Part shown: positions 55,167-57,257 of the stretch, one piece after another
Position numbering within the stretch: the first letter of the stretch is position 1
Layout: each line of letters starts with the position of its first letter
Source: Acetomicrobium flavidum
GTDB lineage: Bacteria; Synergistota; Synergistia; Synergistales; Acetomicrobiaceae
Direction of reading: 5' to 3'
NCBI RefSeq assembly: GCF_900129645.1
Contig: NZ_FSQZ01000001.1
Coordinates: forward strand, 1,054,001 to 1,118,000
Length of the DNA stretch: 64,000 nucleotides
Translations under genes and position numbers: made by a program
Notes under the pieces: generated by a model
Databases searched by the model: none
Told to the model about the DNA's origin: nothing
What the model saw: only the letters and a program-made list of their open reading frames with translations

Positions 55167-56801
55167 TCACTCCCCGTTCAGGTTTATGAGATGTGCCCAC
55201 AACAAATCAGCATCCTTCTGGATCTTTTCCATTATCTCCCTGGGTGCGCTGCTGTCCAGCTGCAGGGCTGCTATGGCAAGCCCGCTTCCGTTCTTTCTGC
55301 CCAGGGCGAAATTCGCTATGTTAACATTATAGTCTCCTAGCAGCGTTCCTATCTTTCCTATGACGCCAGGCCTGTCGTGGTTCGAGAAAAGCAGTATCCA
55401 ACCTTCCGGCACGAAGTCTATCTCGTAACCGTCAACGCGAACTATTCGCTTCTTGCCCTCCTCGGTCACCGTGCCGTCCATGGAAAACGCCTTGTTTTGA
55501 GACTTGATCTCCACGGAGAGGATGTTTTTGTACGTCCTTGCCTCGGTGCGGCTTTCAAAGATACTGACGCCCTGCTCCTTGGCCAAAAGCGGTGCCGACA
55601 TGGCATTTACCTCAGGGCCAAGCCTGACCTCGAGCAACCCCTTCAGTGCGGCCGTGGTAAAGGGCATGTATCTGTAGGGCAGCTCAAAGGGCAGATTCAG
55701 CTCGAATTCCTCAAATAAGGGGCCCGCCATGGTAACGGTCATTTTGGCTATGTGCTCCTTGACCACGCAGGCGGCGATCATGCCCATCCTCCTTGCAAGG
55801 GACAGAAATTCCCTTTCCTGTAGCGTCATCCTGTTTTCCATGTAGGGGATGTTCACGGCGTTCTCGTAAGGTTCGCCGTTTAGCGCCTTGATCAAATTTT
55901 TTACCACTATCTCTGCAACAGCCTGTTGGGCTTCCTTGGTGTTGGCCCCTATGTGGGGGGTTAGCACCACCTTGGCGGCTATCTCGGGGTCAAAAAGCGG
56001 GCTTCCCTTTGGGGGTTCGACTGCGTGAACGTCGAAGGCCGCTCCTGCCAGCCTACCTTCCTTCAGCGCCTCTGCACATGCCCTTTCGTCCACAATCCCT
56101 CCCCTTGCGCAGTTGATCAGGTAAGCTCCCTTTTTGATCGATCTCAGGGCTTCGTCGTCTATCATGTTTTTGGTCTCGCCCGTTAAAGGCACGTGAATGG
56201 TTACGAAGTCTGCAAGCGCCAAAGCACCATGTAAGTCATCTAAGCGCCTTACCCCAAGGTTTTCTACCTTCTTCGCGTTTATGTAAGGGTCGTAGCAAAA
56301 GACTTCCATTCCCAAGGCCTTTGCCCTCGTGGCCACGGAAGAACCTATCCTCCCCAGCCCTATTATTAGAAGCGTCTTGCCGTAAAGCTGCGTCCCAAGA
56401 AAATTCTCCCTCCTCCACTCCCCTTTCCGCAGGGAGTTATTTGCCTGGGGGATCTTTCTTGCCACGGCGATAATCATGCCCATCGTCAGTTCTGTGGCGG
56501 CCAGCGTGTTTCCCGTCGGAGAGTTCAGCACTATTACACCTCTTTTGCTGGCAGCTTCCAAGTCGATGTTGTCAACTCCCACTCCTACCCTGGCAACGAC
56601 CTTTAGGTTTTTACCTGCATCGAGCAACTTTGCATCGACGGCCGTGCCGCTTCTCGTAATCAATGCGTCTGCGTCCTTGACGGCCTCATAAAGCTCCTCT
56701 TTAGATAAGTCGAGTCTAACGATCGTCTCAATGTTCGGCGCTTCGTATAAGTCCCTTAAGCCCTCTTCGTGGATGTGCTCCGTGATCAATACCCTATGCA
56801 T
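55167..56801 (-). CDS. serA: D-3-phosphoglycerate dehydrogenase (long form, ACT domain)
   Basis: A 544-residue enzyme catalysing the first step of serine synthesis. The NAD domain has IIGLGRIGSSVATRAKALG. Catalytic elements are NCARGGIVDE (Arg) and LTPHIGANT (His). An intervening domain covers about 310-465 and a C-terminal ACT domain begins near WILLFSNHDRPGVIGKIG, giving serine feedback control. ATG 56801 is preferred to GTG 56813 because GGAAGGTGG lies upstream at the right distance. A promoter, Ser/Gly/Cys-rich leader frame and terminator precede it, suggesting transcription attenuation. A histidine phosphatase gene follows by six bases. Confidence 0.95.
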   Translation of the reverse strand: MHRVLITEHIHEEGLRDLYEAPNIETIVRLDLSKEELYEAVKDADALITRSGTAVDAKLLDAGKNLKVVARVGVGVDNIDLEAASKRGVIVLNSPTGNTLAATELTMGMIIAVARKIPQANNSLRKGEWRRENFLGTQLYGKTLLIIGLGRIGSSVATRAKALGMEVFCYDPYINAKKVENLGVRRLDDLHGALALADFVTIHVPLTGETKNMIDDEALRSIKKGAYLINCARGGIVDERACAEALKEGRLAGAAFDVHAVEPPKGSPLFDPEIAAKVVLTPHIGANTKEAQQAVAEIVVKNLIKALNGEPYENAVNIPYMENRMTLQEREFLSLARRMGMIAACVVKEHIAKMTVTMAGPLFEEFELNLPFELPYRYMPFTTAALKGLLEVRLGPEVNAMSAPLLAKEQGVSIFESRTEARTYKNILSVEIKSQNKAFSMDGTVTEEGKKRIVRVDGYEIDFVPEGWILLFSNHDRPGVIGKIGTLLGDYNVNIANFALGRKNGSGLAIAALQLDSSAPREIMEKIQKDADLLWAHLINLNGE

Positions 56802-56833
56802 CGCCTTTGCCACCTTCCTTGTGGAAGAATAAG

Positions 56834-56867
56834 AAAAGGGCCGGAAGGTATCGCCTCCGGCCCTTTT
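56834..56867 (-). terminator. Terminator hairpin in the serA leader (putative attenuator)
   Basis: A 12-bp GC-rich stem (56856-56867 with 56834-56845) with a 10-base loop and a 3' TTTTCTTATT on the minus strand, placed 32 bases ahead of the serA start. An upstream segment CTTTTGGCC (56912-56920, minus) can pair with GGCCGGAGG in its first arm and loop (three G-U pairs), a possible antiterminator. Confidence 0.8.
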
Positions 56868-56895
56868 AACAGCTTAGCTTAAACTTTAAATTACG

Positions 56896-57009
56896 CTACA
56901 CCTGATCACGCGGCCAAAAGCAACACCCTTCTCTATCTTGGCTGGAAGACCAAGATCGGGAACAACTGCCGCCGCATGATCCGCAAACTGCATTTCGATT
57001 CATCATCAT
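56896..57009 (-). CDS. Putative serA leader peptide (37 codons, Ser/Gly/Cys/Trp-rich)
   Basis: A short frame with a 28-base 5' leader after the predicted start of transcription. It starts with three consecutive ATG codons, and AGGT lies seven bases upstream. Residues 9-23 (CGSCGGSCSRSWSSS) are Ser, Gly, Cys or Trp in 14 of 15 positions; overall there are 7 Ser, 5 Cys, 4 Gly and 2 Trp. All four amino acids derive from serine, the product of the pathway begun by serA downstream. A hairpin lies inside the Ser/Trp codons and a terminator follows the stop codon. The arrangement is that of classic leader-peptide attenuation. A cysteine-rich small protein is the other reading. Confidence 0.6.
   Translation of the reverse strand: MMMNRNAVCGSCGGSCSRSWSSSQDREGCCFWPRDQV
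56935..56956 (-). promoter_or_regulatory. Hairpin inside the leader frame (possible pause/anti-antiterminator stem)
   Basis: A perfect 7-bp stem ATCTTGG/CCAAGAT around an eight-base loop, overlapping leader codons 19-25 (Ser-Trp-Ser-Ser-Ser-Gln-Asp). In attenuators such a stem pauses polymerase and is opened by the translating ribosome. Confidence 0.55.
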
Positions 57010-57043
57010 AGCTACGACCTGCCATCGTATTGAGATTTATGTT

Positions 57044-57072
57044 TTTATAATACTCTTGCTAAAAGTTGTCAA
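57044..57072 (-). promoter_or_regulatory. Promoter of the serA leader transcript
   Basis: On the minus strand: a perfect TTGACA (57072-57067), a 17-base spacer and TATAAA (57049-57044). Transcription would start near 57037, giving a leader RNA of about 200 bases if stopped at the hairpin 56834-56867. Confidence 0.8.
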
Positions 57073-57115: not shown

Positions 57116-57154
57116 TTAAGGATCGACATGGATCACATCTTCTTCCTTGAGCAT
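57116..57154 (-). other. 12-codon frame with a strong ribosome site, significance unknown
   Basis: On the minus strand, AAAGGAGG is followed after eight bases by ATG and the short frame MLKEEDVIHVDP. It ends in a TAA inside a small CGATC/GATCG hairpin. It lies upstream of the serA promoter and after the peptide operon. It could be a tiny peptide gene, a leader or the remnant of a deleted gene. The remainder of 57073-57217 shows nothing else I can support. Confidence 0.3.
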
Positions 57155-57217
57155 GTCGCATCCCTCCTTTAATGCTGGAATGCTAGCTCATTCGTGCCCA
57201 TCCATTTCATATGTATA

Positions 57218-57257
57218 GTATGGGAAACAAGGCAGTTGCAAGCCTCGTTTCCCATAC
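57218..57257 (-). terminator. Stem-loop after the second peptide operon
   Basis: Arms GTATGGGAAACAAGGC and GCCTCGTTTCCCATAC pair over 15 of 16 positions with an eight-base loop. It is 12 bases past the binding-protein stop codon on the minus strand. There is only a weak T-run after it, so it may be a terminator or an mRNA-stabilising hairpin. Confidence 0.65.

Follow-up and report, generated by a model that had tools for sequence, protein, structure and literature searches.

A serine-rich leader peptide and candidate transcription attenuator ahead of serA in Acetomicrobium and other Synergistales

Introduction

Upstream of serA in a genome of Acetomicrobium (Synergistota), a short reading frame crowded with serine, glycine and cysteine codons lies between a consensus promoter and an intrinsic terminator. 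What does this arrangement do? The locus is contained in the window, the 64-kb stretch of DNA analysed here (main contig, bases 1054001-1118000; genome size 2.02 Mb). An earlier note on this DNA proposed a ribosome-mediated attenuator ahead of serA. The proposal is supported by conservation in nine families, by the terminator and the promoter, by compensatory changes in the stems and by ribosome stalling in silico. We consider it very probable that a ribosome-mediated transcription attenuator of the trp/his type controls serine biosynthesis here, acting on serA and probably on the phosphatase gene that overlaps it.

Results

Organization of the leader region

The elements of the leader are all located on the minus strand. 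The promoter comprises a -35 element, TTGACA (57067-57072), and a -10 element, TATAAA (57044-57049), separated by a 17-base spacer; the -10 element is invariant in five aligned Acetomicrobium sequences. This promoter, which would place the leader frame and serA on a shared transcript, is recognized by its consensus. The leader frame (56896-57009) has 37 codons and encodes MMMNRNAVCGSCGGSCSRSWSSSQDREGCCFWPRDQV, followed by a stop. Its Shine-Dalgarno sequence is weak in the window; its frame, start and approximate length are kept in relatives. Codons 9-23 (56941-56985) read C G S C G G S C S R S W S S S, so that 14 of the 15 specify Ser, Gly, Cys or Trp (7 Ser, 3 Gly, 3 Cys and 1 Trp) and the remaining one specifies Arg. 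A run of this kind, with 14 of 15 such codons, occurs once across the six frames of the window and in none of 40 dinucleotide shuffles. The seven serines are encoded by five codons from both serine boxes (TCA, AGT, TCC, TCT and AGC), which argues against a simple repeat.

Several pairings were obtained by folding. Segment 1 (GATCATGCGGC, 56971-56981) forms the 5' side of the 1:2, or protector, stem, and GCCGCGTGATC (56904-56914) forms its 3' side. This outer stem, which joins codons 10-13 to codons 32-36, goes beyond the elements listed in the earlier note; one compensatory U-A/G-C change was observed when the stem was compared in relatives. An inner hairpin within the Ser-Trp-Ser-Ser-Ser codons (56935-56956) has two pairs changed on both sides. 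Segment 2 (GTGTTGCTTTTGGCC, 56912-56926) is the 5' side of the antiterminator and forms a 15-bp pairing with segment 3 (56848-56862), which is common to the antiterminator and the terminator. The intrinsic terminator hairpin (3:4; 56835-56866) has a 13-bp stem of -22.8 kcal/mol, in which two pairs are changed on both sides, and is followed by a T-rich tract. It ends 33 bases before the serA ATG at 56801. The promoter, the 37-codon frame with a Ser/Gly/Cys/Trp run at codons 9-23 broken by one Arg, the hairpin inside the Ser-Trp-Ser-Ser-Ser codons, the segment able to pair with the first arm of the terminator and the terminator itself had been described before, and each was recovered at these positions; the terminator measurements alone were revised, from a 12-bp stem and 32 bases. 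As in leader-peptide attenuators, codons for the product of the pathway are clustered in a short frame, and an intrinsic terminator precedes the first structural gene.

Alternative folds and ribosome stalling in silico

The complete window RNA folds into the 1:2 stem and the terminator. RNA that ends before the second arm of the terminator folds instead into the 2:3 antiterminator (56926-56912 with 56862-56848), the whole duplex of which has an energy of -24.2 kcal/mol, matched by about 1% of shuffles. With the ribosomal A site at codons 10-24, the antiterminator forms with a probability of 0.82-0.99, although the RNA includes the entire terminator. At codon 25 and beyond, the terminator forms instead, with a probability of approximately 0.94. 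The range of the switch coincides with the Ser/Gly/Cys/Trp run. Folding of the two alternative structures, named in advance as a check, thus returned both of them, and in the window the switch follows the position of the stalled ribosome. The Cys-Cys pair at codons 29-30 sits in the antiterminator strand, and stalling there predicts termination.

A like switch was observed in silico for A. hydrogeniformans, at codons 15-23. The window and A. hydrogeniformans are therefore both predicted to have an antiterminator of the kind found in attenuators of this type, incompatible with the terminator and released when the ribosome stalls at the regulatory codons. At L003, a further Acetomicrobium locus, stalling leads to antitermination only in RNA that still lacks the second arm. 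Once the RNA is complete, the terminator is preferred wherever the ribosome is placed, and antitermination would then depend on the kinetic order of folding alone. The ribosome-free window RNA already favours the antiterminator as long as the 3' arm is missing (0.98), which suggests that uninitiated transcripts might escape termination.

Among five Acetomicrobium relatives, five pairs of the 1:2, inner and 3:4 stems are changed on both sides, a count reached by 1 of 500 shuffles, and 97.5% of cells pair compared with at most 51% when the stems are slid. The 2:3 helix is paired in 97.3% of cells but shows no double changes; it thus has no covariation support, as expected if its bases also serve other stems. 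Across a set of 59 leaders, antiterminator strength exceeds that of shuffled sequences (mean z -1.5; 42% below p 0.05), and a looser measure of arm pairing is only slightly above shuffles. In some families, the 5' strand of the antiterminator lies inside the Ser codons themselves. Given the weak separation of the looser measure from shuffles, the modelled antiterminator outside Acetomicrobium is provisional.

These folds are consistent with the following mechanism. RNA polymerase would start at the promoter at 57072-57044, and a ribosome would translate the 37-codon leader. When charged tRNA-Ser, and possibly tRNA-Gly or tRNA-Cys, is scarce, the ribosome would stall in codons 10-24 and cover segment 1. 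Segment 2 (56926-56912) could then pair with segment 3 (56862-56848) to form the antiterminator, and the polymerase would enter serA. When the tRNAs are charged, the ribosome would pass codon 25 and cover segment 2, segments 3 and 4 would form the terminator (56866-56835), and transcription would stop before serA. The parts, their conserved placement across the Synergistales and the thermodynamic switch in silico were observed; translation of the leader, a rise of serA transcription on starvation and the identity of the tRNA that is sensed are inferred.

Conservation across the Synergistales

The sample consisted of 73 Synergistales operons from nine families with enough upstream sequence, each a serA or an aminotransferase-serA operon with its start assigned by tblastn. 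A Ser-rich frame was defined as a short frame in which 12 codons include 5 or more Ser, at most 350 bases upstream of the operon. Such a frame was found on the sense strand of 59 of the 73 operons, compared with 6 for the antisense strand and 4.4 for shuffled sequences; these counts represent related genomes rather than independent events, and the peptides share little outside the run across families and genera. At a threshold of 7 Ser, the counts are 32, 0 and 0.02, respectively. Ser-rich frames come from each of the nine families sampled, and eight of the 73 operons have at most 3 Ser in 12 codons. The comparison of serA upstream regions in relatives had been set beforehand as a test of the attenuator, which it passed in this respect: the Ser-rich frame is kept.

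The flanking signals recur as well. In 59 of 65 scored leaders, the frame is separated from the operon by a terminator of -12 kcal/mol or stronger (antisense, 11; shuffles, 1.8). A promoter scoring at least 10.5 by consensus match precedes the run in 49 of 56 leaders (shuffles, 0.5); these promoters lie 47-104 bases ahead of the run and mostly read TTGACN-17-TATAAR. In Acetomicrobium, five genomes contain the region, and all retain the frame with its start and position; the leader peptide is MMPKKIIFSMSCGNGSNSRSWSRNQDWKECCFWPHESS in A. hydrogeniformans and MAFDLNVICISCGSSSSRSWRSRQERKRCCLRPRDIKAK in L003, each followed by a stop. Leaders ahead of an aminotransferase gene include LGTGSSSSSSSGWSGRAGLPVPAG (within the G024 leader), GISSSSLSSGASSSCGGSGC (G130) and GAMGSSSSSWEGDSSS (G182).

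The run is conserved at the amino-acid level while the bases change, as expected for leader-peptide attenuators. Among aligned Ser-Ser pairs, the two codons differ in 20 of 56 in Acetomicrobium, in 115 of 223 in g41 and in 86 of 253 in g36, counted together with one g47 genome; in the larger sets, this is between one-third and one-half of the pairs. The rest of the peptide varies freely from one genus to another. Together, the Ser-rich frame and the terminator probably allow a ribosome stalled by serine starvation to switch on the serine genes across the Synergistales.

The leader was absent from the four genomes of family f11, which lie outside the order; there, the aminotransferase gene closely follows another gene. 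No convincing leader was found upstream of Myxococcota serA loci, where the best sense frames have 1-6 Ser and the antisense frames 4-5. Within the order, the 300 bases upstream of the aminotransferase gene at L155 (G140) retain the leader promoter and the terminator, and no Ser-rich frame was found among them; this region is possibly a decayed attenuator.

The amino acid that is read

Codon composition was determined for the densest 15 codons of the leaders, weighted by genus over 26 genera. Serine accounts for 49% of the run compared with 8% of the rest of the leader, the former value being inflated by selection on Ser density. Glycine and cysteine were not selected on; they make up 15% and 5.5% of the run, 1.9-fold and 2.35-fold above shuffled sequences. 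Tryptophan shows no enrichment (1.8%, 1.2-fold). Glycine and cysteine are made from serine as substrate, which makes their co-sensing reasonable. As judged from codon composition, the leader would sense mainly charged tRNA-Ser, with Gly and Cys as plausible co-signals; sensing of tryptophan outside Acetomicrobium is not supported. Of the four amino acids for which sensing had been proposed, serine is thus supported, glycine and cysteine, being enriched, are possible, and tryptophan is not shown.

An attenuator with four equal inputs (Ser, Gly, Cys and Trp) overlaps with this explanation and differs from it in the signal alone. The mixed composition of the Acetomicrobium run and the roughly two-fold, order-wide enrichment of Gly and Cys fit such a device, as does antitermination in silico upon stalling at any of codons 10-24. 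Equality of the inputs is nevertheless unlikely, since Ser dominates everywhere and Trp, at its 1.2-fold level, occurs in the run of only 8 of the 26 genera. A tentative extension of the serine reading, to which we give somewhat less than even chances, is that a serine-specific leader-peptide attenuator is ancestral for serine biosynthesis in the Synergistales and that the mixed Gly and Cys codons allow joint reading of serine and its two direct products.

Codon choice was also recorded. In the leaders of 54 genomes, 86% of Ser codons are UCN and 14% AGY, whereas the downstream genes have 74% and 26%, respectively. In B. subtilis sinR, it is the UCN codons that are sensitive to starvation (PMC3862929).

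Other explanations for the conserved region

The region might act as a riboswitch for serine or another metabolite, or as a protein-bound RNA, with the Ser-rich frame incidental to RNA structure. In Acetomicrobium, it is indeed highly structured and conserved in its bases, for example in TCATGCGGC and GGCCGC. The other families, however, have no evident common RNA sequence and yet keep a Ser-coding run in a short frame, and the codons of this run vary and are drawn from both the UCN and the AGY box. No Rfam covariance model for a T-box, a riboswitch or another RNA matched the leader or 20 related loci, and a riboswitch or T-box was rejected on this ground; the sole match in the Rfam search of the window was a chance-level lncRNA located elsewhere. 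A structured RNA of this kind is very improbable. Alternatively, the frame could encode a nascent-chain arrest peptide or a functional small protein in place of a sensor of tRNA charging. This would suit the recurrence of a loose motif (SCG then SSS; GSSSSSGW) and the retention of C-terminal residues such as CCFWP in close relatives. The C-terminal codons kept in Acetomicrobium are, however, those of the antiterminator strand, the peptide outside the run is free to drift between genera, and the product of the pathway itself dominates the run; the chances of an arrest peptide or small protein are accordingly very small as well. That the terminator ends the transcript of the upstream gene, with serA served by its own downstream promoter and the frame being noise, is hardly credible and was rejected: intergenic intrinsic terminators are common and the gene upstream has the same direction, but that gene has its own hairpin just past its stop, the promoter, frame and terminator recur in this order before serA operons beside different upstream genes, and 0.02 leaders are expected by chance at the 7-Ser threshold compared with 32 observed. 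A chance frame was rejected from the 73-operon comparison and from the absence of the run in the 40 shuffles of the window.

A second leader in the same genome

A Trp leader was also observed in this genome. The frame MSMIDSFNKKNNNWWWQAH (NNNWWWQAH, followed by a stop; L158, G000:C1) lies about 300 bases upstream of a trpE match, behind a TTGACA promoter and ahead of hairpins. Its layout of promoter, repeated-codon frame and hairpins is that of the serA leader, with Trp codons in place of Ser codons. Judged by this layout, it is apparently a classic Trp attenuator in this Synergistete, which suggests that leader-peptide attenuation is probably in use there, and it provides a positive example from within the genome.

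Comparison with known systems

The trp, his, thr, leu, ilv and pheA attenuators of E. coli and Salmonella (PMC1183508) share with the attenuator proposed for serA the promoter, the short leader frame rich in codons for the product, the mutually exclusive antiterminator and terminator, and the intrinsic terminator before the first structural gene. The present leaders depart from these in carrying codons for Ser, joined by those for Gly and Cys, in preceding serA or an aminotransferase-serA operon, and in belonging to the Synergistota; in the literature consulted, serine is not named among the specificities. Leader-peptide systems have been assigned mainly to Proteobacteria and Actinobacteria, plus a single histidine example in Firmicutes (Naville and Gautheret 2010, PMC2965389), and the amino acids that they read form a limited set. 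The Synergistete Thermovirga lienii was analysed by Stav 2019, the main text of which names no serine leader (PMC6429828).

Other amino acids outside the classic set have been described. The polycysteine short frames of mycobacteria (Canestrari 2020, as cited in PMC7790235 and PMC13236596) are, according to these citing papers, leaderless and contain Cys rather than Ser, in another phylum and with other target genes. The cysS uORFC-8-2 motif of Rhodobacterales (PMC8632094) likewise involves Cys rather than Ser and differs in phylum and target. The serC RNA motif (RF00517) of alpha-proteobacteria is also a 5' element, that of the serC-serA operon, but consists of two short stems, the last of which hides the ribosome-binding site, with no leader frame or terminator reported (PMC1273637); its Rfam model matched neither the window nor the 20 related loci. 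In B. subtilis sinR, serine scarcity is similarly read through slowed translation of UCN serine codons, but the sensor acts on the translation of its own gene without an attenuator, and the authors contrast it with attenuation (PMC3862929).

No serine leader-peptide attenuator was found in the open-access literature searched, and control of this type appears to be new for serine. Leader-peptide attenuation is itself a known mechanism; within the open-access literature checked, its use for this amino acid, this target operon and this phylum is new. If true, a serine attenuator shared by the whole order would extend leader-peptide attenuation to one more amino acid and to the Synergistota, and provide a regulator for serine biosynthesis in these anaerobes. 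The approximately 60 diverged leaders would form a natural set for studying the evolution of regulatory codon runs, and the serine reading makes a testable prediction in cultured species.

The serA gene and its neighbours

The regulated gene, serA (55167-56801, minus strand), encodes D-3-phosphoglycerate dehydrogenase; it matches TIGR01327 above the cut-off and contains PF02826, PF00389, PF19304 and ACT domains. Its start is likely the ATG at 56801 rather than the upstream GTG at 56813, because the former aligns with the ATG starts of relatives. A gene of the histidine phosphatase family (PF00300; 54529-55200, minus strand) overlaps serA. Its best PDB match is 4ij5/4ij6, 'Phosphoserine phosphatase 1', and its best NCBIfam match is PspA, yet below the cut-off of that model. 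These matches make it a probable PspA-type phosphoserine phosphatase. Because of the overlap, the phosphatase gene is probably co-regulated with serA, and the regulated unit probably consists of two serine-pathway genes. The overlap of the PspA-like gene with the end of serA also suggests a serA-pspA pair in Acetomicrobium.

In other Synergistales, an aminotransferase gene mostly precedes serA, and the leader then lies ahead of the aminotransferase gene. No homologue of this aminotransferase was detected in the genus Acetomicrobium at 1e-40. The leader DNA occurs once in the genome of the window. It accompanies serA or its operon, and the upstream gene differs between the window and A. hydrogeniformans; in the window, it is a solute-binding-protein gene with the same direction.

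Two further features were observed upstream of the leader promoter, both on the minus strand. A 12-codon frame, MLKEEDVIHVDP followed by a stop (57116-57170), is preceded by a perfect Shine-Dalgarno sequence, AAAGGAGGG, and is possibly a gene remnant. Just past the solute-binding-protein gene, a long hairpin without a T tract (GTATGGGAAACGAGGC / GCCTTGTTTCCCATAC, approximately 57218-57257) is perhaps the terminator or a 3'-end stem of that gene.
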